DNA of 29,543 bases from a virus, in IMG/VR virus record IMGVR_UViG_3300044655_003354, positions 1-29,543 of that record; one strand, given 5' to 3'. Position 1 is the stretch's first letter. Every line of letters begins with the position of its first letter. Shown here in pieces: positions 2,219 to 29,543 of this stretch. The position numbers and the translations under genes were made by a program. Under the pieces are notes generated by a model. That model had not been told where the DNA came from. It saw only the letters and a program-made list of their open reading frames with translations, and did not search any database.

Positions 2219-2311
2219 GGAGGGGTGGCCGAGTGGTCGAAGGCGATCGACTCGAAATCGATTAGGCGGCTAATACCTGCCTCGTGGGTTCAAATCCCAC
2301 CCTCTCCGCCA
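2219..2311 (+). tRNA. tRNA-Ser (anticodon CGA)
   Basis: This is a class II tRNA with a 7-base acceptor stem (GGAGGGG with CCTCTCC), anticodon stem ATCGA/TCGAT around loop CTCGAAA with anticodon CGA at 2253-2255, a long variable arm, a T arm with GGTTCAAATCC, and encoded CCA. It reads UCG codons. The gene is intact, and a phage integrase follows it on the same strand, so it is the likely integration target. Confidence 0.97.
2281..2311 (+). other. Probable attL core within the tRNA-Ser 3' end
   Basis: P4-type integrases commonly use the T-arm/3' part of a tRNA gene as attB and restore the tRNA on integration. Here the integrase begins about 170 bases past the intact tRNA end. The exact core cannot be set because attR is outside the window; a duplicate of part of this segment should lie at the far end of the prophage. 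Confidence 0.45.
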
Positions 2312-2342
2312 TTTGATAGTCTAGCCGGTTACAAAGGAGTCT

Positions 2343-2377
2343 AAAAACCCGCTCACGAAGCGGGTTTTTCTTCTTTT
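2343..2377 (+). terminator. Intrinsic terminator downstream of tRNA-Ser
   Basis: An 11-base stem AAAAACCCGCT/AGCGGGTTTTT (2343-2353 with 2359-2369) with a 5-base loop is followed by a T-rich run. It ends tRNA transcription and separates it from the integrase. Confidence 0.88.
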
Positions 2378-2426
2378 GACAGTCCAGCCCAATACATCTA
2401 CAATTAAGGGAAGCTAAGTACTAACC

Positions 2427-2468
2427 GTGCACATAACAGTACACAGGCATAAAAAGCGACCGTACACA
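2427..2468 (+). repeat. Three GTRCACA repeats upstream of the integrase
   Basis: GTGCACA (2427-2433), GTACACA (2439-2445) and GTACACA (2462-2468) are direct repeats in the leader between the tRNA terminator and the integrase start. Their place is that expected for arm-type integrase or excisionase sites, or an autoregulatory operator. This is pattern only, with no further support. Confidence 0.4.
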
Positions 2469-2483
2469 AAGGAGTGGCTGGCG

Positions 2484-3641
2484 ATGCTTACAGATACTGG
2501 GATTCGGAGGGCTAGGGCAAAAGAGAAGAGATATATGATTTCAGATGGCAATGGACTTTATATCGAGGTCATGCCTTCTGGGAAAAAATATTGGAGACTT
2601 CGATATTGGCTTAATAAAAAAGAATATAAAAAATCCCTGGGACCGTACCCTGAGATCTCGCTGAAAGAGGCCCGAGATCTTCGAGATCAAATAAAAAGAT
2701 CCATCGTACGCACTGGCCAGCCTGTTGTTGCTACGAATACCTTTGAAGCTGTTGCCAACGAATGGCTTGAGAAAAAGGTATTACCCATCAGAACGCCACG
2801 ACATATTGAAACCGTTACTTCGAGGTTGCGAAGGTTCGTTTTTCCTCATATCGGGCAAAAACCTATCGGTGACATAACTTCTCCTGATGTACTCGCGCTC
2901 CTGAGAGAAATGGAAGATAGAGAGATTTATGAAAGCGCGCATAGGGTAAGACAAATCATTGGCCAGGTTTTTCGTTATGGCATTGCCACTGGCGTAGCAG
3001 AGCGCGATATTACCGCAGATCTCAAAGGAGCTCTCATCCCTGTAAATTCCAATAGATACCCTACAATTACCGATCCTGTTGAAATAGGTGCCCTTATGCG
3101 AGCTATAGGGAGCCTTGACACTCTTGTAGTGCGTTGTGCTTTACTGTTACAAGCGTACACGTTTGTGAGGCCAGGGGAGCTGAGAAAGGCTGAATGGGCG
3201 GAATTTGACCTGAAAGGGCAGGAGTGGCGAATTCCCGCAGAAAAAATGAAGATGAAGAGGCTACACATCATTCCATTGTCATCTCAGGCTGTTAGCGTCT
3301 TAAAAGAAATTTATCCGGTTACAGGTTTGCGTTCGAAGTACGTTTTCCCCACTGTGAGAGATCCTAACCGGCCTATGAGCGATGCAACTGCAAACGCTGC
3401 CTTGCGACGACTTGGATACGAAAAAGAGAAATTCACAGGGCATGGATTCCGCAGTATGGCTTCCACGATTCTCAACGAGCACGGTTGGCCATCTGATGTT
3501 ATAGAAAGACAGTTAGCTCATATCGAACGGAATGCAGTTAGAGCAGCCTATAATCATGCGGAATATTTGGATCAGAGACGAGAAATGATGCAGTGGTGGG
3601 GGAATTGGTTGGAAGAGGTAAAGGGAACAAATAAACATTAG
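2484..3641 (+). CDS. int: Tyrosine-type integrase, P4 family
   Basis: This protein carries out site-specific integration and excision of the prophage. The 385-residue form starts at ATG 2484, chosen because AAAGGAG lies 9 bases upstream and the protein then opens MLTDTGIRRARAKEK, the usual start of P4-type integrases; a GTG at 2427 would add 19 atypical residues. The N-terminal arm-binding domain (DGNGLYIEV, KSLGPYPEISLKEAR) is followed by a core-binding domain and a catalytic domain with Arg234, His320, Arg323, His346 and Tyr356. It lies next to tRNA-Ser and points into the prophage, typical for this family. No stop or frame damage is visible. Confidence 0.95.
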   Translation: MLTDTGIRRARAKEKRYMISDGNGLYIEVMPSGKKYWRLRYWLNKKEYKKSLGPYPEISLKEARDLRDQIKRSIVRTGQPVVATNTFEAVANEWLEKKVLPIRTPRHIETVTSRLRRFVFPHIGQKPIGDITSPDVLALLREMEDREIYESAHRVRQIIGQVFRYGIATGVAERDITADLKGALIPVNSNRYPTITDPVEIGALMRAIGSLDTLVVRCALLLQAYTFVRPGELRKAEWAEFDLKGQEWRIPAEKMKMKRLHIIPLSSQAVSVLKEIYPVTGLRSKYVFPTVRDPNRPMSDATANAALRRLGYEKEKFTGHGFRSMASTILNEHGWPSDVIERQLAHIERNAVRAAYNHAEYLDQRREMMQWWGNWLEEVKGTNKH

Positions 3642-3670: not shown

Positions 3671-4861
3671 CTATTTTTCTATAAACGATTTCATTTTAAT
3701 TAAGAGAGTCTCAAGTGAAAGCCCCTTTAAATAATAGAAAAAGATAACTATTACCATAGTAGTTAAAAAAAATAGTGTGACAAAGAAAATGTTTAACAGA
3801 AGGTCTATGCGCTCGCATCTTTTATTTAATTTTTCATACATCTTATAGTAATCTTTCTTGATTATATCTGGGAATTTTCCTTTTGCTTTTTTCTGGTAGC
3901 TGATCTCACTTTTTATTGCATTCAAACTATCCCTTTGGTTCCTCAAAACAAAAAACATAGAAAGGGAAAAAATAACTATACTTAGAAGCAACAAAAAATT
4001 AGTTAAGCTCCATCCTTTTACTCGTTCAAATTTTAAAGCAGCCAGTGCAGAAGCTAATGGCAAGGCAAGAATTCGACCTGATATTTGGGCAATGAGGTCA
4101 TTAATTTTTAAGAAATAATCTCTTTTTTGTCCTTCGATGTCATCTAGGGTTTTTTCGATAGAAAAACTACTCATAAACGTTTCGTAATCACCATTTACTT
4201 TATGGTATAAATTATCACAGTTTTCTAACAAAAATTTAAGACGAACCGCCTCTTCTTTTAGTTCAACTAGGTGGAATATGTTGTTTCGAATTATTGCCCT
4301 TTTTTGTTCTTTATGCGTGCTGTCATCAAAGAATTCTTTTAAACGATTTAAAGAGCGACATCTCTTAAGATCATCAATACTATATGTCAAAGGGATTTCA
4401 ACTTTCCCATTTTTAAAAAAAATGATCTTCTTTAATGGATTCCCTATTTCATGATCTGCTATGTTGCAAAGAAAAGATATGAAATTTACTACATCGAAAT
4501 ATTTTTGGACATTTTCTGGTGGAGATGTTTTGCCATTATCGCAATCATATAGATAGTCTAAATCAGCGATGTAAAAAATGTCAGGAATATGTATTTTAGT
4601 GCAAGCATTTTCTGTTAAGTCCTTAAGTTCAGTGGCAAAGTAGGCTAGAGGAGATGCAGGAAGATAAAAACAAACATTATTTTGTGAAGTTTCCGCAATA
4701 TCTAAAAGGCCAACTCCTTCTAGCTCCTTAGATATACCCTCACATTGGGATGGGTCAGAGATAGTACCTTTCACACGTCTTTCTGATACAAACTCATGAG
4801 AGGAAAGCGCACGGAAAGCTTTGACAGCTGTTTGCAGCTTTTTAGCATGATTTACGTCCAT
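3671..4861 (-). CDS. Membrane protein of unknown function with two C-terminal TM segments
   Basis: I do not recognise this 396-residue protein. The N-terminal ~250 residues are soluble and mixed, perhaps a winged-helix-like start (KAFRALSSHEFVSERRVKG). Hydrophobic segments lie near residues 286-306 and 353-378, with a basic, coiled-coil-prone stretch between them (about 308-350) that would form a loop on one side of the membrane. GGAGG precedes the ATG. It is the last gene of the leftward block and starts 21 bases after the NA37-like gene, so the two are probably co-expressed. A large cytosolic sensor part with a two-TM hairpin is a layout common in anti-phage effectors, but here that is inference only. 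The region is AT-rich compared with the phage structural genes. Confidence 0.75.
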   Translation of the reverse strand: MDVNHAKKLQTAVKAFRALSSHEFVSERRVKGTISDPSQCEGISKELEGVGLLDIAETSQNNVCFYLPASPLAYFATELKDLTENACTKIHIPDIFYIADLDYLYDCDNGKTSPPENVQKYFDVVNFISFLCNIADHEIGNPLKKIIFFKNGKVEIPLTYSIDDLKRCRSLNRLKEFFDDSTHKEQKRAIIRNNIFHLVELKEEAVRLKFLLENCDNLYHKVNGDYETFMSSFSIEKTLDDIEGQKRDYFLKINDLIAQISGRILALPLASALAALKFERVKGWSLTNFLLLLSIVIFSLSMFFVLRNQRDSLNAIKSEISYQKKAKGKFPDIIKKDYYKMYEKLNKRCERIDLLLNIFFVTLFFLTTMVIVIFFYYLKGLSLETLLIKMKSFIEK

Positions 4862-4882
4862 TGAGCGATCCTCCTTATAAGT

Positions 4883-5905
4883 TTAATTTCCTCGTATAAA
4901 TCTTTCTATTTTCTCTATTTCTGTTTGGGGAATATTTTCTATGGTAATAGAATGTGCAATTTCATCATAAATTATTGTATCATTAATAGCACTTTGCTCA
5001 AATTGTAATTTTACCCCTGTCATAGTTACTTTTAAACGTTTGAGGGTTTCGAATGTTATCTTATGGGGTTTAAATTCATCTGTTATATTATATGTTTCGT
5101 TGTTATTTATATATGAAATAAACTCCCCGCTATCTTCTCCAAAAATACGGTTTGATAAATCTTGTAAAATTACTGGTTGCTTATTTCTATCTTTTTCAAA
5201 AAGATACCGATAAAGGTCATCTCTTAAACCGGTTTTTTCTTCTTCTGTCATATTCCTTTCTTGGCTAAAATCTGTTACAGCTTTTAATAAGTTTTCGGTA
5301 CAGCGTTTAGAGCTTGTATAAGCAGAACACCTTAATGCGCTACGGAAATAATTCGTAGCATCATCGTTATTTCTGTATTTAACAAAAGAAAGGTATGAGT
5401 TTTCACTATGTTCTTGCCATTTAACCAAGTCGATCCTGGCAACTTCATTTAAATGCTCTAAATCTAATGTGATATGCTGATTTAATTCAAGATCATCATT
5501 TATTCCTACACTTGCTTTGTCCTTTAACATAGCAATCATAATATAATCACGATCGCTATTTTGATATTTTATAAATAAAGCATAACCTCCTGTTGATGCT
5601 GGGGCTTGTTCCATAAATGTTTTTATTTCATGAGTTATATTTTTTGAAAATTGGACAAAGGGAATGTCCCCGGTAGAAAGCTGACTAAAATAATCTTCAA
5701 CAAGATTAGGAGTTCCACTATTTTGATCATTTTCAAAAATGCCATACCCTTTATTTGATTTGGTGTTGTATATTTGTCTTAAATCCTCTACTAGTTGTTC
5801 TAAATTTTCTTCAATCTCGTTCTCTTTTTCCCTATAATTTATTTCGGCTGTGCTAGTGTATTGTCCCTTTATAATTTGATGTACAATAGCGTTTGATATT
5901 TGCAT
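4883..5905 (-). CDS. NA37/NdpA (YejK)-like nucleoid-associated protein
   Basis: The 340-residue protein matches the 37-kDa nucleoid-associated family in its central part: a GGYALFIKY strand, a YIMIAMLKDKASVGINDDLELN segment, HLDLEHLNEVARIDLVKW, then YLSFVKYRNND and YFRSALRC. Family members such as E. coli YejK bind DNA; their role is poorly defined. A strong AAAGGAGG sits upstream of the ATG. On a prophage beside a two-TM protein it is more likely accessory cargo than a housekeeping gene. It could bind incoming phage DNA or nucleoprotein, but this is inference. Family assignment is by pattern recall, not a search. Confidence 0.75.
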   Translation of the reverse strand: MQISNAIVHQIIKGQYTSTAEINYREKENEIEENLEQLVEDLRQIYNTKSNKGYGIFENDQNSGTPNLVEDYFSQLSTGDIPFVQFSKNITHEIKTFMEQAPASTGGYALFIKYQNSDRDYIMIAMLKDKASVGINDDLELNQHITLDLEHLNEVARIDLVKWQEHSENSYLSFVKYRNNDDATNYFRSALRCSAYTSSKRCTENLLKAVTDFSQERNMTEEEKTGLRDDLYRYLFEKDRNKQPVILQDLSNRIFGEDSGEFISYINNNETYNITDEFKPHKITFETLKRLKVTMTGVKLQFEQSAINDTIIYDEIAHSITIENIPQTEIEKIERFIRGN

Positions 5906-5974
5906 AAGTTTATCCTCCTTTAATCCTTTTCTGTATAGTTATAACTCGTGCTTCTCATATAGATAAATCATCTC

Positions 5975-6238
5975 TTAAGTGTCCGATGTAGTGGAGGAAC
6001 TCGTAGTCTGGGCGGTATGCTCTTGGCTTAAAACGGCAATCTCCTCCTTGTGATTATTGATTTCTTGAGAACTCGTTTCCCACTTCGTTGCGAAAACCAA
6101 GACAAACAAAATACAAATACCAACCGTTACCGCAGTTGTTTTATTGCGTAAAGGGGGTTTTTTTATCATTGGAAGCATAGTAAATTTTAGGAGTAAAAGG
6201 TATTCCTCAATTTCCTCTACTGCCGATATTCTTCTCAT
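5975..6238 (-). CDS. Small single-TM protein, unknown
   Basis: The 87-residue protein has a soluble N-terminal part, a basic patch (KKPPLRNK), one hydrophobic segment around residues 36-51 (VTVGICILFVLVFATKW) and a polar, Ser/Thr-rich tail. Its ATG overlaps the stop of the nuclease-like gene (ATGA), which suggests translational coupling and a shared task. The basic patch before the TM favours an N-in orientation. No family recognised. Confidence 0.65.
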   Translation of the reverse strand: MRRISAVEEIEEYLLLLKFTMLPMIKKPPLRNKTTAVTVGICILFVLVFATKWETSSQEINNHKEEIAVLSQEHTAQTTSSSTTSDT

Positions 6239-7061
6239 ATTCCGTCATAAATTTGGTTATCAACCTCTCTTTGGTGATCAACCTCTCTTGTTACTTCAAT
6301 ATATTTATCGAGACTCAAGATAAAGGGGATTTTCCCATCATTACTTACGCCCATAACATTGGTAAACATGGAATCAAATCTACCACTTTGAGATGCATTA
6401 TTGCCCTTAAGGTTTATAAAATCCTCAACATACTTTTTAAAAGCCTCCCTATCTATTCCTTTTTGAAGAATAGATTCAGGAGGTAGTGATTTGCCTCCGT
6501 TTTTAAGTGATTCATATCGAATGACAGATTGAAAAGAGTTATAAGATATTGCTTCTTCTTTGAGTGCACTTATTTCCTCTATAGCTGTTTGTCTTCTAGT
6601 TCGTAAAATATCAAAAGCGTCTTTAAGAGGAATTGCATCAATTGCTATTTGAGATATTTTTTCTTGCAAAGTACTTTCTTTAGGAGCGTCTGGCTCAATT
6701 TTCGGATACCAGTAATTTTGAGCACATATGATAGCTCCATCATGACAAAATTCCCCATAAATAAAAAAATGTGCTTTTGCTTCTTCACTATGCTTTGAAA
6801 AAAAGCTTTCCCCTTTATTTCCTAATTGAGGAAGTAACTCTCCATTTTCAAAATAAACGTCTTCTCCCTTAAATTTTTTGTTCTCAGAATCGATGTCTTT
6901 TTTAGTCCTTTTAAATTCTATAAGTAAAAAATTCCCTTCAAAATTGAGGATGGCATCTCCAGCTTCTTCTGGATTGCCATCAAGAGGGAATATGCTTATA
7001 AGCCCGCGTTCCAACATATGTAAAAAAATTTATATTCAACCGTTTTTTCCCACCAAATCAT
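6235..7061 (-). CDS. PD-(D/E)XK nuclease-like protein, gene broken by a one-base frame slip in a T7 tract
   Basis: The main frame from 7017 gives 260 residues beginning MLERGLISIF, with no ribosome binding site and a stop codon four codons upstream. Near its start are GDAILNFEGN and LLIEFKR, the Asp and Glu-x-Lys pattern of PD-(D/E)XK nucleases. The missing first helix is present in another frame: ATG 7061, behind a GGGGGG run, encodes MIWWEKTVEYKFF and then enters a run of seven T (complement of 7022-7028). One extra T would continue it directly into LHMLERGLISIF. So this is one gene of about 275 residues that is mutated, miscalled, or expressed by -1 slippage. It overlaps the small TM gene by 4 bases. 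Upstream ATGs at 7076 and 7085 are other possible starts. Confidence 0.7.
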
Positions 7062-7114
7062 ATTATTGCCCCCCATCTTTTTCATTCGCCAAATGGCTCT
7101 ATTGCTTAAATCCC

Positions 7115-8032
7115 CTAAATTATTTTCAAAAAATCAGCCTCAGACATTATCTCTATTGGAAAACCTTTCGCTCTCAGGTCTTCTGCTTTCTTCGTCTTGG
7201 CACTTCTTTCCCCATCAGTGAATAGGGAATAATCCTGAATGCCCATCACAAGATAATTCGTTTGCATCGTAACGCCTTGTTGAGGGGTCCCACCGGCTTT
7301 TTCAACCAGGCAAAAAGCTTCCTCTCTAGTCATAGATACCAATGTTCCTGTAAAAGTAATCTTTTTCTCGTAAAAAGGGTGAAAAGGATCTTTGCCACAT
7401 TCTTCGGGAGAAGGATGTCGCGGTTTTGCTCTTGCAGGAAAATGAATTCCTGAAGGTGTGTACTCCCCGTTACAGATTCCTCCGATGCGGAATCTCAGCT
7501 CTTTTTTTAGTTTTTTTAAATCGTTAACATTATGCTCCCTGCACGCTGCCAAAATGATTTCAGCTGAACACCTTGCATCTTCTTCCGCGTCGTGATGTAT
7601 AAGAGGCAATCCTAGATGACCTGCTACTACAGGCAGGGAGAATGAAGACAAAAAAGGCCATGCTCCTTTGGAAACAGCGACAGAGCAAACAATGTCACAA
7701 TCTGGAATATCTAAACTGTAAAGGGGAAGGGTGTTTCGAATAACGCTAATGTCGAAAGAGGCGTTATGCGCAACGACGGTAGCGTTTGTAAGTAGAGGCT
7801 TAACTTCTTCCCATATTTGGTTGAATTCAGGCTTGTTTTTTACATTGCGTTTTTGAATACCATGAATTCTAACGTTGAAAGGATTGAAGTAATAGTAATC
7901 TTTAGGTGGCTTTATGAGCCACGATTTTGTTTCTGTAATTTCGCCATTTTCAACAATAGCTATTCCAAGAGCACATGGGCTGCATCTTTTCTCATTCGCT
8001 GTTTCAAAATCTATAGCTACAAAGTTGAGTAT
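7115..8032 (-). CDS. DnaQ-family 3'-5' exonuclease with C-terminal BRCT domain; ATA start codon
   Basis: The 305-residue protein has exonuclease motifs AIDFETAN (Asp8, Glu10), AHNASFD (Asp94) and HDAEEDA (His147, Asp152), then a linker and a BRCT domain (about 218-305: KKITFTGTL, EKAGGTPQQGVT, TNYLVMG). It resembles stand-alone epsilon-like exonucleases that act on DNA or RNA ends. The full domain has no ATG, GTG or TTG start: the first is a TTG at 7651, deep inside the exonuclease fold. A very strong GGGAGGAGG lies 8 bases before an in-frame ATA at 8032, giving ILNFVAIDFET, so ATA in place of ATG is the likely start. An in-frame stop lies directly before it. The gene sits in the lysogenic leftward block. 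Confidence 0.85.
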   Translation of the reverse strand: MLNFVAIDFETANEKRCSPCALGIAIVENGEITETKSWLIKPPKDYYYFNPFNVRIHGIQKRNVKNKPEFNQIWEEVKPLLTNATVVAHNASFDISVIRNTLPLYSLDIPDCDIVCSVAVSKGAWPFLSSFSLPVVAGHLGLPLIHHDAEEDARCSAEIILAACREHNVNDLKKLKKELRFRIGGICNGEYTPSGIHFPARAKPRHPSPEECGKDPFHPFYEKKITFTGTLVSMTREEAFCLVEKAGGTPQQGVTMQTNYLVMGIQDYSLFTDGERSAKTKKAEDLRAKGFPIEIMSEADFLKII

Positions 8033-8071
8033 TTAAATAACCTCCTCCCTGCATATTTCCAAATATAAGTT

Positions 8072-8941
8072 TTAAGAAAAAAGCGTTAGCTGACATTCTT
8101 TACGTAACAACTTACCACTGAAATCTCTCCTGGATTTCAGTGGTTTTTGTAACTTCTTTTGGGGGCCATTGATCAAGAAGTGGACGAACTCGTCTTGAGT
8201 CATGCTGTGAGATGTGTTGTTTTCTGTAAAATGCCATGAAAACTTTACATGTCCTGGGAAACGTTTCCCATCTTGAATACTTGCAGGGGACGCAGCATCG
8301 ATTTGAATCAAAGGAGAGACACTTGAGCCCGCATAAGAGTTTTTATAAATAATGTCTCCCTTGGCAAAGCCAAAGTTAGAGCCTTGGGTCCAGGCAAGAA
8401 AGGAGACGGTGTTTTTGTTGCGCTCCATCAGCTGTATATCTAAAGCGGCATTAAAACAGTCGGGAACATGCATATACCAGTCTGAACAAAATTTGCATCT
8501 GATAGTTTGCAAGATCCTTCCTGAGCGAATATCGTTATCATTTGTGCTTGACGCCTTAAGCAATGTCTTAAGTGTTGACAAGGAACCCAGCGTCGTTTCT
8601 TGGCACATGTTAATGCCATGTTTTAATTCGCTTTTTAAAGTGGTGTAGAGCTCGTTTTTTGCTCTTTGTAGACTATTGCTCAAGCGGAACTTTATTTTTG
8701 TCCCCCTGTTATATTTTTTATCAAAAGAAATAAAATTCTTATCAAGTAGTTCTTCAATACCTTTATTTGGCAACTCCCATGTTTGCCAGTCGAGTTTTTC
8801 CATGAGCTTTTTGTATTTCGAAGGGTCTTCTTTTTGCAGTTTTTTGTTTATCTCTTCTGCATGTTGATGTCCGATAATGTCGATGTGCAAAATAAAAGCA
8901 AGCATCGTTCTTGCATCGGGTGAAAGAGTGTCTATGTTCAT
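8072..8941 (-). CDS. Unknown protein with winged-helix-like N-terminus and a Cys-containing centre
   Basis: The 289-residue protein is not recognised. The first ~90 residues are helical and basic (EEINKKLQKEDPSKYKKLM, NKGIEELLDKNFISFDKKY), like a winged helix that senses or binds nucleic acid. The centre has RCKFCSDWYMHVPDC, a possible metal site. The C-terminal half has strands and ends basic (KPLKSRRDFSGKLLRKE). I use ATG 8941, about 10 bases after GGTGGG, rather than GTG 8956. It starts 19 bases after the SWIM gene, so both are probably translated from one message. The pairing suggests a joint function, but no role can be stated. Confidence 0.7.
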   Translation of the reverse strand: MNIDTLSPDARTMLAFILHIDIIGHQHAEEINKKLQKEDPSKYKKLMEKLDWQTWELPNKGIEELLDKNFISFDKKYNRGTKIKFRLSNSLQRAKNELYTTLKSELKHGINMCQETTLGSLSTLKTLLKASSTNDNDIRSGRILQTIRCKFCSDWYMHVPDCFNAALDIQLMERNKNTVSFLAWTQGSNFGFAKGDIIYKNSYAGSSVSPLIQIDAASPASIQDGKRFPGHVKFSWHFTENNTSHSMTQDEFVHFLINGPQKKLQKPLKSRRDFSGKLLRKECQLTLFS

Positions 8942-8960
8942 TTTGAATATTCCCACCTAC

Positions 8961-9779
8961 CTAGTCTGAAAGTTCGTAAATATAACTTCCCCAATAGAGC
9001 GCATCATCTGATGTACAGTCGAAATCATCTTGAAACAAATTCTTTTTCAAATGGGTTCGTACTTTACCTCGGATGCCACGAGCCTCTTCTTTGAATTTCA
9101 CTATGCAGTAGTCTTTTTTAAGTTCATCAACAGATTCTGGACAAAGTGAATAGACAAGTTTGATTGTTTCTTTCTTTGTTCGTGGACATTTTAAATTATT
9201 TTCTTTTAAGACTTGGCGTAAATCTCTGATGTGGACTAAGACAAGAAGTCTTTCTGGTGAATCCACTTCTTGTAAGATTTCTTTAGAAAGCAACTCTCTA
9301 TGACTAGATTCATCACGGCAATAAATCCATGAGCCAGTGTCTAGACCATATATCCAACGCGTCAAAAGTGCGTAAAGTTCTTTTTGGGAATCTTCTTGAA
9401 GGGAGTCAATTTTGTGCTTTTTATCTTCATTGAAAGTTATAACAACGTTGGAAATTTTACCGAGATCTATAATTCCGAGCTCATGGGCAAGACGATAAAT
9501 ATGTTTACAAGGGATAGTGTGTTTACGTTTGAAGGCTCGTTTAAAGTCTGTGCAAGTGCAGGATGTAAGAGTAGTGATATATGGAGTAGAGCTACTTCCT
9601 TTAATTGTGCAAGAACCTTTTACCGCATCTAGATTATCTACCTTAGCGATAAGTTGAGCTCGCTCCATACGCCTTTGTTGGGGTGGCTCGTCATGTATTT
9701 TATCTCCCCAGTGCATTCGCCAAAGACAATGGAGACAAATATCCCCACTATATTCAGCACCGCACCTTTCGCATTTCAT
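8961..9779 (-). CDS. SWIM zinc-finger protein with N-terminal zinc ribbon
   Basis: The 272-residue protein begins with Cys3-x2-Cys6 and Cys15-x2-Cys18 (CERCGAEY, CLHC), a likely zinc ribbon. A SWIM domain follows: SCTCTDF ... IPCKHIYRLAHELG (Cys74, Cys76, Cys91, His93; CxCxnCxH). SWIM domains bind DNA or protein, often beside helicases or transposases. A later stretch LKENNLKCPRTKKETIKLVYS is SAP-like. ATG 9779 is chosen because AAGGAG lies 8 bases upstream; GTG 9788 overlaps that site. It is the first accessory gene after the repressor, 44 bases downstream, and so is likely co-transcribed with it in the lysogen. Confidence 0.8.
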   Translation of the reverse strand: MKCERCGAEYSGDICLHCLWRMHWGDKIHDEPPQQRRMERAQLIAKVDNLDAVKGSCTIKGSSSTPYITTLTSCTCTDFKRAFKRKHTIPCKHIYRLAHELGIIDLGKISNVVITFNEDKKHKIDSLQEDSQKELYALLTRWIYGLDTGSWIYCRDESSHRELLSKEILQEVDSPERLLVLVHIRDLRQVLKENNLKCPRTKKETIKLVYSLCPESVDELKKDYCIVKFKEEARGIRGKVRTHLKKNLFQDDFDCTSDDALYWGSYIYELSD

Positions 9780-9823
9780 GCTGGTCACTCCTTAAGTAGT
9801 AAAACGTGTATTTTAGATAAAGA

Positions 9824-10540
9824 TCAAATTCCTTTCCTTGGAACCGCCGTTAGAAGTGTCACTTTCCCGACGATATAAAAAAGTCCCATGTTTATTTCTT
9901 CTTTAGTAAAGCTTCTGGGCTTGTATTGGGGGGCAGCAGAACGGATTTCAACAGAACCATCTTTTGTGTCGAAATATACCCATTTTATTGCCCATTCTTT
10001 TTGCAAGCCAAAACAAACTAAGGCAACATCACCGTCATATACTTCTTCTGCGGGATTCACAACGACTGTGCTTCTGTCAGGGATTCCAGCGCCTTCCATA
10101 CTATCTCCTTCAACCAAAACTGCAAACGGCTTTTTATCAGCATCTATAGAGATATTTCCTACGACATCAATGGGTAGAAGTATCGTTTTTTCAGCGCTAG
10201 CATAAATCTCAATCATGCCCCCATTACCTCGTCCGGCACATGCAATAGCTGTTGGATCAAGAACAGGGACTTCTATCCATTTGTCAAAGTATTGGGCTGA
10301 TTCTTTTCGTACATTAGAGGTGATGTCAAGTGGGGTAGATCCATCTGTTTCCCCCATAAGGTAGGCGACAGTGGTGCCAAAAACTTGAGCCAACGTTTTC
10401 AAAACATTAGCGTCGGGAGTTCTAAGCCCTTTTTCCCAATTAATAATAGAGCTTCTTGAATATCCGGATTTCTCCGCAACTTCTTGCTGAGTCATCCCCT
10501 TTCGCTCTCTACATTCTTTGAGCTTTTCCTCAACAGACAT
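9824..10540 (-). CDS. CI/LexA-like phage repressor (HTH_3 + S24 peptidase)
   Basis: The 238-residue protein has an N-terminal XRE helix-turn-helix (about 6-62; MTQQEVAEKSGYSRSSIINWEKG) and a C-terminal S24 autoprotease with VEGDSMEG (catalytic Ser147), Lys186 in EWAIKW and a probable Ala102-Gly103 cleavage site in ACAGRGNGG. It should hold lytic genes off by binding the adjacent operator region and be self-cleaved after RecA activation during DNA damage. AGAGGTGATGAG precedes ATG 10540; a start at 10585 would add 15 residues without support. It is divergent from the Cro-like gene and heads the leftward accessory block. Confidence 0.93.
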   Translation of the reverse strand: MSVEEKLKECRERKGMTQQEVAEKSGYSRSSIINWEKGLRTPDANVLKTLAQVFGTTVAYLMGETDGSTPLDITSNVRKESAQYFDKWIEVPVLDPTAIACAGRGNGGMIEIYASAEKTILLPIDVVGNISIDADKKPFAVLVEGDSMEGAGIPDRSTVVVNPAEEVYDGDVALVCFGLQKEWAIKWVYFDTKDGSVEIRSAAPQYKPRSFTKEEINMGLFYIVGKVTLLTAVPRKGI

Positions 10541-10686
10541 CTCATCACCTCTATTTAATTGTCTACGAATGTGGTCATAAATCAAGAGTAAGAAAGTAAT
10601 CTTTTCGTGTTGACATATGTAACATTTAGATATATAGTTCTTTTAAAGAGTACGATTGACTACATAGCAAGAGTGGGGGTGAAGTG
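10541..10686. promoter_or_regulatory. Divergent operator region between repressor and Cro-like genes
   Basis: This 146-base gap holds the rightward early promoter and must hold the repressor's own promoter, which I could not pick out clearly. Candidate operator signals are a dyad around ACATATGT (10614-10621), overlapping the -35 side of the rightward promoter, and three AAGAGT copies (10584-10589, 10646-10651, 10669-10674). Location rather than motif strength supports the call. Confidence 0.65.
10610..10638 (+). promoter_or_regulatory. Rightward early promoter (PR-like)
   Basis: Perfect TTGACA (10610-10615), a 17-base spacer and TATAGT (10633-10638, five of six consensus bases) lie about 50 bases upstream of the Cro-like start. 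The ACATATGT dyad overlaps its -35 end, so a bound repressor would block polymerase. Confidence 0.85.
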
Positions 10687-26145: not shown

Positions 26146-26425
26146 AAAGCCAAAGACAATACCCAAAGTAGAAGAAATAGATAGAGTAACATATTGCGGC
26201 CCCAGCATTCCCACGCTGGGGCTTTTGCATGGCTCTACGTTTGTTGGGGGCTTGCCGGAACAAATAAAAACTCTGGCAGATGATAACCCATTCATTAAGC
26301 CTCTCTTTGTGGAGCCACAAGACGTTGGAATAGCTTTAGTTGCTATTTCTACGCATGGAACCGTTCTTCACTCCCTTGCAGGGCGTGCCAGGAATATATC
26401 TATAAAACGAGGTGAGAAGGCATGA
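26129..26425 (+). CDS. Small pre-sheath phage protein, unknown
   Basis: The 98-residue protein starts at ATG 26129, 9 bases after GAGGAGG; the open frame further upstream only mirrors the previous gene. Contains CGPSIPTLGLLHGSTFVGGLPEQIKTL. Such small proteins are often found before sheath genes with no known role. It overlaps both neighbours. Confidence 0.65.
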   Translation: MAKDTKKPKTIPKVEEIDRVTYCGPSIPTLGLLHGSTFVGGLPEQIKTLADDNPFIKPLFVEPQDVGIALVAISTHGTVLHSLAGRARNISIKRGEKA

Positions 26426-27888
26426 GCTATTTCCATGGAGTAAGAGCCTCTGAAATTCCTACAGCGATTATCCCGCCCGTGAGACTCGATAGCCCCGCTG
26501 TAGTCATAGGAACTGCACCTGTGCATATGAGTCTTGATGGAGTTGGGAAGACGAATGTCCCAATTCTTTGTTACTCATATAAAGAAGCTGTTGAGGCTTT
26601 CGGCTATTCTGCCGATTGGGGGAATTATTCTTTGTGCGAAGCCATGTACACGTTCTTCGCTCTTTTCGGTGTAGCACCAGTCGTTTTTGTAAACGTTCTT
26701 GACCCTACGACGCATAAAACACCTGTAGCCAGCGAGTCTGTTGGCATTGGAGCAGATGATAAAGCAGTATTGAAAGAGTTCGGTGCTTTGCCAGGATCTG
26801 TTGTGGTAAAGAGTCAGGCTGGAGATACGACATATGAGCTTAACAAAGACTACATCCTTTCTTTTGATGACGATGAGAAGCTGGTAATTACTCGCGTTGC
26901 TACTGGAACGATAGAGGCTGAGGCAACACTGACAGTTTCTTACGATAAACTTGATCCCACAGCTGTTAAAAATACAGATATTGTAGGCGGTTACGACGTA
27001 GCAACGGGCAAGTATACAGGTCTCGAACTCGTGGAACAGGTATTCCCGAAGTTTAGGCTTGTCCCAGGCATGCTATTGGCTCCTGGTTGGAGCGATGATA
27101 CTTCCGTAGCATCGGTTATGGCGGCTAAGACAAAGAATATCAATAGCGTTTTTAAGTCGATTGCTCTTGTTGATATCCCCGTAGATGCAAATACAAAATA
27201 CTCTGATGTTCCTGGTTGGAAAACAATAAATAACTTTGTTCACGAAAATATGATCACATGTTGGCCGAAGATCAAGCTGGGTAACGCTGTCTATCATCTG
27301 AGTACTCAGGTGGCTGCTTTGATGATGCAGATCGATGCTGAAAACGAGGGAATTCCATACGTGAGCCCTTCCAATCATCTTCTGCAGATGGATGGATCAA
27401 CGATTGGTGATACTAGCGAGAGCAATGAGATAAGCCTAACCCTTGACCAGGCAAACTATTTAAACAGTCAGGGTATCGTTACTGCCTTGAATTTTATAGG
27501 TGGGTGGAAATGTTGGGGAAACCGCACTGCGACATATCCAGGCGTTACCGATGCAAAAGATTCTTTCATTCCTGTAAAACGCATGTTCTACTGGAAGGCC
27601 AATCAGCTGATCATGACATATTGGCAGAAAGTTGATGCCCCTACAAATCGACGATTGATCGAGACTATCGTCGATAGTGAGAATATCAATTTGAACGGAC
27701 TCGCGGCACGAGGAATTCTGGTAGGCAACCAGAACAGAGTGGAGTTCAGATCAGATGAAAATCCGTTGACCGATTTGATCGATGGAATCGTTCGTTTCCA
27801 CTTGTTTATGACTCCGCCTATTCCTGCACGAGATATTGAGTGGCTTATCGAGTATGACGTAAGCAACCTCAGTTCTCTTTTTGATTAG
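26422..27888 (+). CDS. Contractile tail sheath protein, P2 FI-like
   Basis: The 488-residue protein begins YFHGVRASEIPTAIIPP, the standard sheath opening, then PAVVIGTAPVH, FGVAPVVFVNVLD, a variable beta domain (about 110-190), LVPGMLLAPGW and a C-terminal NRVEFRSDENPLTDLIDGIVRFHLFMTPPIPARDIEW. This defines a myovirus-type contractile tail. It is directly followed by the tube gene, as in P2. Confidence 0.96.
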   Translation: MSYFHGVRASEIPTAIIPPVRLDSPAVVIGTAPVHMSLDGVGKTNVPILCYSYKEAVEAFGYSADWGNYSLCEAMYTFFALFGVAPVVFVNVLDPTTHKTPVASESVGIGADDKAVLKEFGALPGSVVVKSQAGDTTYELNKDYILSFDDDEKLVITRVATGTIEAEATLTVSYDKLDPTAVKNTDIVGGYDVATGKYTGLELVEQVFPKFRLVPGMLLAPGWSDDTSVASVMAAKTKNINSVFKSIALVDIPVDANTKYSDVPGWKTINNFVHENMITCWPKIKLGNAVYHLSTQVAALMMQIDAENEGIPYVSPSNHLLQMDGSTIGDTSESNEISLTLDQANYLNSQGIVTALNFIGGWKCWGNRTATYPGVTDAKDSFIPVKRMFYWKANQLIMTYWQKVDAPTNRRLIETIVDSENINLNGLAARGILVGNQNRVEFRSDENPLTDLIDGIVRFHLFMTPPIPARDIEWLIEYDVSNLSSLFD

Positions 27889-27900
27889 GAGGGATGTCGA

Positions 27901-28422
27901 ATGAATATAGTTCCAGAAAAGCTGATTAACTTTAGAGTTTTCAATGAGAGCAACGATTTGATTGGCGTAGCTGATGTCGATTTGCCTTCTCTTGAGCCAA
28001 TGACTGAGACAGTTAAAGGGGCAGGAATTCTTGGAGAGATAGATTCCCCCACACTTGGCCATTATGGAAGCATGACTCTTACAATTAACTGGAGAACTGT
28101 TACCAGTAATTCCGCTGCATTATCTGTTCCTCAGGCTCATCAGCTCGATATGCGAGGAGCCATACAAATTCATGATGCTGCTACAGGAAAATATACTTCT
28201 GAAGCGTTAAAGGTTGTTTGTGGCGCTGTTCCTAAAAAGACAGGGCTAGGCAAACTGGATGTAGGCGCTTCAGGAGATGTGGCCAATGAGTTCGAAGTTT
28301 TACATATCAGGGTGTGGCTTGAGGGAAAAGAGCTTATCCATATAGATAAGCTCAATGGCGTGTGCAAAATCAACGGTGAGGATGTGCTCGGTAAGGTAAA
28401 AGCAGACCTTGGGCTTGTGTAG
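27901..28422 (+). CDS. Tail tube protein, P2 FII-like
   Basis: The 173-residue protein with PEKLINFRVFNESNDLIGVADVDLPSLEPMTETVKGAGILGEID and a late IDKLNGVCKINGEDVL is typical of P2-type major tube proteins. It polymerises inside the sheath. AGGAGG precedes the ATG. Confidence 0.95.
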   Translation: MNIVPEKLINFRVFNESNDLIGVADVDLPSLEPMTETVKGAGILGEIDSPTLGHYGSMTLTINWRTVTSNSAALSVPQAHQLDMRGAIQIHDAATGKYTSEALKVVCGAVPKKTGLGKLDVGASGDVANEFEVLHIRVWLEGKELIHIDKLNGVCKINGEDVLGKVKADLGLV

Positions 28423-28434
28423 GGAGTGTGAAAC

Positions 28435-28749
28435 ATGGAGACAATAAAACTGACGAAACCTATATCTTATGCGGGGAAAGAATATAAAGAATTAGAACTT
28501 GACCTTGAAGGGTTGAGTGGTGCTGACATGATTGCGGCAGAGCAGGAATGTCTGGCTCTTCAGCAGGTAGTTTCACCAGTTGTTGAGTTTTCTAAATCAT
28601 ATCTCAGCAATCTCGCGGCCAGAGCCGCACATGTTGACTCAGATTTGATTAGGCAGCTTCCAGTAAGGGATTTTTCCTACGTCACTCTCGTGGTGCAAAA
28701 TTTTTTGCTGGATACGGGAGGCCCTCGGGAAGAACTATTAGACGCTTAA
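28435..28749 (+). CDS. Tail assembly chaperone, P2 gpE-like (short form)
   Basis: The 104-residue protein begins METIKLTKPISYAGKEYKELELDLEGLSGADM, typical of P2 gpE, which guides tape measure and tube assembly. Near its end the ribosome meets T TTT TTG (28701-28707) in the correct frame for a -1 shift. Unshifted ribosomes end at 28749 with LLDTGGPREELLDA. Confidence 0.92.
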   Translation: METIKLTKPISYAGKEYKELELDLEGLSGADMIAAEQECLALQQVVSPVVEFSKSYLSNLAARAAHVDSDLIRQLPVRDFSYVTLVVQNFLLDTGGPREELLDA

Positions 28750-28886
28750 TATTGCGAGTAGCTCAATATACCCGAACGGGTGTTGATTTCTGGCTACGAA
28801 TGCCTCTCGCAGAGTTGATGCAATGGATAGAAGATATAGCTGATGTAATAAAGAAAGGTGGTGGCAGGCATGGGGAGGGTTTATGA
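28435..28886 (+). CDS. Tail assembly chaperone long form E+E' made by -1 frameshift
   Basis: Slipping back one base at 28701-28707 moves the ribosome to the frame GCT GGA TAC, which stays open to TGA 28884-28886. The added part is 59 residues, including LRVAQYTRTGVDFWLRMPLAELMQWIEDIADVI, a Trp-and-Pro-Leu pattern matching E' extensions. Total product is about 150 residues. It overlaps the tape measure start at 28870. No separate start for the second part is needed or seen. Confidence 0.88.
28701..28707 (+). promoter_or_regulatory. Programmed -1 frameshift site T TTT TTG
   Basis: In the zero frame the codons are AAT TTT TTG, giving the X XXY YYZ heptamer T TTT TTG, the same kind reported for P2 E/E'. 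The preceding A AAT TTT is a second overlapping match. Both fit a slip to the E' frame. Confidence 0.9.
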
Positions 28887-29543
28887 GTTTGCGATACAGT
28901 TGGGATCAAAGTTATCTAGCGGTTTTGGCAAGCCTTTCATGTCTGCCGCCGCAAATATTGATAGGCTTGATAAAAATCTAAAGAACTTAAAAGATAGACA
29001 AGGCAAGATAGATGCTTTTAGAAATCTAAGGAGAGATATTCACGATACTCGTTTGTCGTTTGTTCAGGCCCAATCTGATGTAACTCGTTTATCTCAAGAG
29101 ATGCAAAGAGCTGAGAAGCCTACAAGAGCACTTCAAAACAGGTTCAATGCTGCACAGAGAAAAGCGGAAACCTTGCGAGGAAAGCTCAAGGGGCAACGGC
29201 AAGAGCTGACACAACTTCGTGGAACTCTCAGTGCTGCCGGCCTTTCAACCAAAGGCTTTCGTAGCGAACAAGAAAAACTTGCAAAACAGATAGAGAAAAC
29301 TACCAAAGTTCAAAAGAACCTTCAAGCAATACAAGGCATGAAACAGGCCAATCTTCAGCATCGAGCGCAACTAAGAGGGCAGATGGTAGATACAATGGCT
29401 CTTGCCTCCTCTATCGCAGCTCCAATTTATGCTGCTGCTAAGGCTCAAGAAGCAGAAGTGCGACTTTCTACAGTTATCAATGCAAAAGACAAAGAATCAG
29501 CGATGAAAGAAGCAGCTTCTGTAGCTAGACGATTGGCAAAATC
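28870..29543 (+). CDS. Tail tape measure protein, 3' partial
   Basis: The frame is open from ATG 28870 to the window end (224 codons seen). It starts MGRVYEFAIQLGSKL, then a long helical, Lys/Arg/Gln-rich coiled coil (residues ~35-175), and a hydrophobic-leaning stretch (MALASSIAAPIYAAAKAQE) from about 176, as in tape measure N-termini. It overlaps the E' end by 17 bases, matching the P2 order E/E'-T. This gene sets tail length; the rest lies beyond the window. Confidence 0.9.
   Translation, partial: MGRVYEFAIQLGSKLSSGFGKPFMSAAANIDRLDKNLKNLKDRQGKIDAFRNLRRDIHDTRLSFVQAQSDVTRLSQEMQRAEKPTRALQNRFNAAQRKAETLRGKLKGQRQELTQLRGTLSAAGLSTKGFRSEQEKLAKQIEKTTKVQKNLQAIQGMKQANLQHRAQLRGQMVDTMALASSIAAPIYAAAKAQEAEVRLSTVINAKDKESAMKEAASVARRLAK

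Follow-up and report, generated by a model that had tools for sequence, protein, structure and literature searches.

Does gene E, which lies between the tail tube and tape-measure genes of a prophage, encode one tail assembly chaperone or two? The window (the whole stretch of DNA analysed, a virus record of 29,543 bases with a prophage in it) carries the heptamer T TTT TTG near the end of E, and the sequence-only reading had proposed a canonical P2-type E/E′ frameshift here, in a phage with a lambda-like head. We conclude that a programmed –1 ribosomal frameshift almost certainly yields two products from this chaperone gene, E (104 aa) and E+E′ (150 aa).

The E/E′ locus and its setting

The 5′ end of the window is a bacterial-looking flank followed by a tRNA-Ser gene and an integrase-like ORF, while the 3′ end cuts the tape-measure gene. 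The features needed for the argument are the following.

2219-2311, tRNA-Ser (cga)
2427-3641, integrase-like ORF
26422..27888, + strand, tail sheath (FI) gene (PHROG 23 tail sheath, E = 2.8e-81)
27901..28422, + strand, tail tube (FII) gene, just 5′ of E (Pfam PF04985, E = 1.2e-39)
28435..28749, + strand, gene E, tail assembly chaperone, 104 aa, 0-frame product (PF10109, PHROG 3140)
28701..28707, + strand, slippery heptamer T TTT TTG in the E frame (direct reading, register checked, conserved in relatives)
28707..28886, + strand, E′ reading frame (–1), 59 codons plus TGA (homologous –1 frames found by tblastn, alignment with relatives)
28870..29543, + strand, tape-measure gene, truncated where the window stops (PHROG 28 tape measure, E = 4.9e-17)

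The prophage has probably integrated at the tRNA-Ser (cga) gene, next to which the integrase-like ORF lies (2219-3641). Ahead of the tRNA gene the flank shows, as judged by eye only, a tadA-like deaminase and a rubrerythrin-like protein. The minus-strand block from integrase to repressor (3671-10585) encodes a 37-kDa nucleoid-associated protein (PF04245, 5e-68), a SWIM zinc-finger ORF, several unknown ORFs and, on the same strand, a weak BRCT/DEDDh-tail ORF (7115-7651) that is possibly a DnaQ-like exonuclease remnant. A PADLOC search of this block for defence systems gave no convincing match.

Pfam assigned the head genes to the lambda type (GpA ATPase, 4.5e-85; lambda-family portal, 7.8e-100; Clp-like protease, 3.8e-32; capsid E, 1.5e-63), and the tail genes (sheath, tube FII, E and tape measure) are of the P2 type. 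P2-type head and packaging genes, which would mark a P2-like phage as a whole (Peduoviridae), are absent; those seen here are lambda-type.

E reads from ATG 28435 to TAA 28747-28749. Its product passed the curated cut-off of Pfam PF10109 (Phage_TAC_7, E = 3.3e-7) and matched the tail assembly chaperones of PHROG 3140 (E = 4.6e-30). The codons AAT TTT TTG place the heptamer in the X XXY YYZ register of E, 39 nt ahead of the E stop, and an overlapping A AAT TTT register is present at the same site. The –1 frame restarts at GCT 28707 and is open for 59 codons to TGA 28884-28886; direct reading of E thus confirmed both the frame of the heptamer and the length of the open extension given by the sequence-only reading. 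In the predicted product of 150 aa, E′ forms the C-terminal part. The PHROG 3140 profile was matched by E at positions 128-222 and weakly by E′ (E = 0.24) at positions 243-271, an order that fits a fused product. A Pfam scan of the window E′ gave no match, and a scan of E′ together with 27 relatives gave no consistent match to the P2 GpE family.

The precedents of P2 and lambda suggest how such a locus would work, from the slippage itself and its efficiency to the roles of the chaperones. Most ribosomes would terminate at the stop codon of E and release gpE (104 aa), whereas a minority would slip back by one base with tRNA-Phe and tRNA-Leu on T TTT TTG, so that TTT TTG re-pairs as TTT TTT, and continue into E′ to give gpE+E′ (150 aa). 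As the tail is assembled, the two forms may act as chaperones of the tape measure and bring in tube subunits, like gpG and gpGT of lambda; gpE and gpE+E′ of P2 presumably act likewise. In lambda, whose G/GT pair has been reviewed (PMC5009743), the long form joins the tape measure to the tube protein.

The tape-measure gene follows E′, as had been claimed. No stop interrupts its frame between GTG 28858 and the window end, and the likely start is ATG 28870, with GTG 28858 as the alternative. ATG 28870, which lies inside the –1 stretch, and its upstream GGTGGCAGGC are common to the window and to L005, a related locus. From this ATG the overlap with E′ is 17 nt. The tape-measure start is independent of recognising E′. 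The expectation that ordinary annotation would lose both E′ and the tape-measure start is supported in its first part, E′ being missed or mis-started in most relatives, but not in its second.

Conservation of the site and rival readings

Slippery heptamers are frequent enough to raise the question of chance: in frame, X XXY YYZ occurs 46 times across 18 window genes (46 of 4366 codon steps, ~1%). Among these 46 sites, the one in E is followed by the longest –1 frame; the next longest, after TTTAAAC in the sheath gene, has 56 codons. When E was re-coded synonymously and the spacer shuffled, 0.43% of trials produced a strong heptamer followed by 50 or more open –1 codons. This within-window result is modest on its own, and the relatives therefore decide the question of chance.

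Relatives of E were taken from annotated phages and viral contigs. Searching genome contigs with the single E sequence yielded one distant locus only, and a contig scan with the tape measure returned L005 again and nothing further. The motif NNT TTT TTR stood at the matching Phe-Leu in about 32 of 34 relatives. The non-redundant set comprised 35 E genes containing a Phe-Leu, of which 33 were initially scored as having the motif, against some 7.1 expected from the codon usage of each locus; one of the 33 (L048) had been scored at the wrong Phe-Leu, so that 32/34 is the fair count. The formal P for this conservation (~1e-23) overstates its significance because the relatives share ancestry. In nearly all of them, the –1 frame remains open past the site for about 50-90 codons.

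The extension is conserved as a peptide as well. With E′ alone as the query, tblastn found a counterpart directly after E in Lily (3e-7), KLER1-1 (5e-4) and phiERICV (1e-3), and Faecalibacterium phages were matched after E too (Pioen, 1e-2); the match to Vibrio phage X29 was weak (E = 2). The E′ proteins of the window and L005 share 66% identity, and substitutions between the two loci in the E′-only stretch number 12, 5 and 19 at positions 1, 2 and 3 of the –1 codons, that is, they are concentrated at the third. In Pd_22F, L041, Dulem virus 34 and MT835543, which are without T6R, E′ still lies in the –1 frame. The sequence-only reading had named homologs lacking the open –1 frame as evidence that would count against it; this check was run and did not refute it, since relatives with a changed motif keep an E′-like –1 frame.

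These comparisons bear directly on the other ways to explain the locus. That a slippery heptamer merely precedes a fortuitously open frame could appeal to the ~1% of codon steps noted above and to the 19% of resamplings in which T6R arose at the Phe-Leu of E. This account is refuted by the relatives, both by the conservation of the motif and by the homology of the –1 peptides, and we give it practically no credence. Alternatively, E′ might be a separate gene with a start inside the –1 frame and no frameshift extension at all, as the separate small E′ CDSs annotated in Lily, KLER1-1, PVP-XSN and others would have it. The earliest start-like codons in the E′ frame of the window are TTG 28752 and ATG 28800, and a Shine-Dalgarno sequence is absent ahead of both, which argues against an independent gene. 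Moreover, the –1 frame is already conserved upstream of these codons, from the slip site onward, and T6R is kept more often than codon usage would predict; a separate E′ gene is thus very unlikely.

Transcriptional rather than ribosomal slippage could also join the two frames, since the slip site is a homopolymer run, and T7G occurs in some P2-like phages (PMC3931495). The X XXY YYZ register, however, is a prediction of tandem tRNA slippage, and some relatives carry G GGT TTT or T TTG GGG in place of a long run. Six T residues are, in addition, a short run for slippage by RNA polymerase. We rate this explanation slightly below even the separate gene, and retain programmed ribosomal frameshifting as the reading of the locus.

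Candidate frameshift stimulators

The 60 nt downstream of the window site folded no better than shuffled sequences (z 0.27), and the same test gave no excess stability for L005 (z 1.07) or P2 (z 0.59). No clear Shine-Dalgarno-like stimulator was seen in the window. PVP-XSN, Rostov 7 and KLER1-1 each have a structure downstream of the site with a folding energy of –27 to –34 kcal/mol (z –4.5 to –7.1), and L040 and L037 have comparable hairpins there. Being without a strong downstream hairpin, the window is closer to P2 than to several of its nearer relatives. Such hairpins are apparently lineage-specific frameshift stimulators.

The very stable hairpins just 3′ of the slip site (z –4.5 to –7.1 for the three given the folding test) lie at 3249-3320 in both L014 and L017, 12264-12335 in L004, 3267-3338 in L040 and 760-831 in L037. 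In other relatives, the slip motif is replaced and the –1 frame of E′ is kept (L012, 3240-3460; L041 and L042, near 3260; L015 and L016, near 3250). The replacement motifs there are T TTG GGG or G GGT TTT, and L012 is without any X XXY YYZ at the site.

We suggest tentatively, and with more doubt than conviction, that the stimulator has been swapped repeatedly within one chaperone family: a hairpin after T6G in the X29/Rostov 7/PVP-XSN type, KLER1-1, L040 and L037, none in the window, L005 and P2, and a few members with G GGT TTT or T TTG GGG that keep E′. If this were true, stimulator swapping would offer a natural series on the trade-off between slip motif and stimulator that holds the ratio of E to E+E′.

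Comparison with known systems

The window shows the marks of a P2-type frameshift, namely a gpE-family ORF between tube and tape measure, a slippery X XXY YYZ heptamer near the end of E and a –1 extension overlapping the tape-measure start. In P2, for which we relied on the P2 record and on papers citing the P2 frameshift work (Christie 2002), E likewise lies between tube gene FII and tape-measure gene T, with T TTT TTG and a –1 frame of 57 codons overlapping T. P2 gpE passes the PF10109 cut-off, as the window E does, and in this respect the label "canonical P2-type" stands. It fits E′ less well, which is without a Pfam match and only weakly similar to P2 E′ (hhalign P 3.1e-4, probability 39%), although both match phrog_10636 (E = 0.0076 for the window and 2.2e-5 for P2). 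A direct profile match of the window E to P2 gpE was not detectable. P2 further differs in the overlap of tape measure and E′ (8 nt versus 17 nt), in the distance from slip site to stop (18 nt versus 39 nt) and in its head genes, which are unlike the lambda-type genes of the window. Lambda gpG/gpGT is a functional analogue, with two chaperone forms made by –1 frameshifting just ahead of the tape measure; lambda has a flexible tail and the present phage a contractile one, and the likeness drawn here is one of function.

Closer in E are Lily and phiERICV (Paenibacillus) and KLER1-1 (Pararheinheimera), whose E proteins are 45-46% identical to that of the window and which have T TTT TTG and an E′ homologous by tblastn; the head-plus-tail architecture of the window was seen in full for Lily and KLER1-1. 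They differ in that the frameshift is unannotated, E′ being a separate small CDS in Lily and KLER1-1 and missing in phiERICV. More widely, the annotations of Lily, KLER1-1, PVP-XSN and Pd_22F begin E′ at an internal start, those of phiERICV, Pioen, 473R2 and Rostov 7 lack it, and that of X29 joins it to E. The main value of the present locus lies in annotation: the entry for this prophage ought to list both E and E+E′, and in most relatives gene calling overlooks E′ or gives it a wrong start.

An E/E′-type –1 frameshift in a phage with a lambda-like head is supported by the head Pfam matches and by the relatives, but the combination is not new. Vibrio phage X29 (phi 2, NC_024369) shares the gene order (terminase, portal, Clp-like protease, decoration, capsid E, sheath, tube, E/E′, tape measure) and has T TTT TTG at the matching Phe-Leu, followed by 57 aa in the –1 frame; the two frames are annotated as a joined CDS, and the tail-chaperone frameshift is stated in the 2017 genome announcement (PMC5690320). 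X29 differs from the window as follows: its slip site is followed by a strong stem-loop, which was measured in Rostov 7 (identical stretch type) and is absent in the window; its E is 29% identical; its E stop comes 6 nt past the heptamer instead of 39; and a further small ORF separates tube and E. Novelty through head/tail mosaicism was ruled out, the layout being common to X29, Lily and KLER1-1. Since a lambda-like head, a P2-like tail and the frameshift have already been described together in X29, the window adds no new mechanism, and its tail-chaperone frameshift is very probably real but ordinary, a well-known trick of tailed phages.
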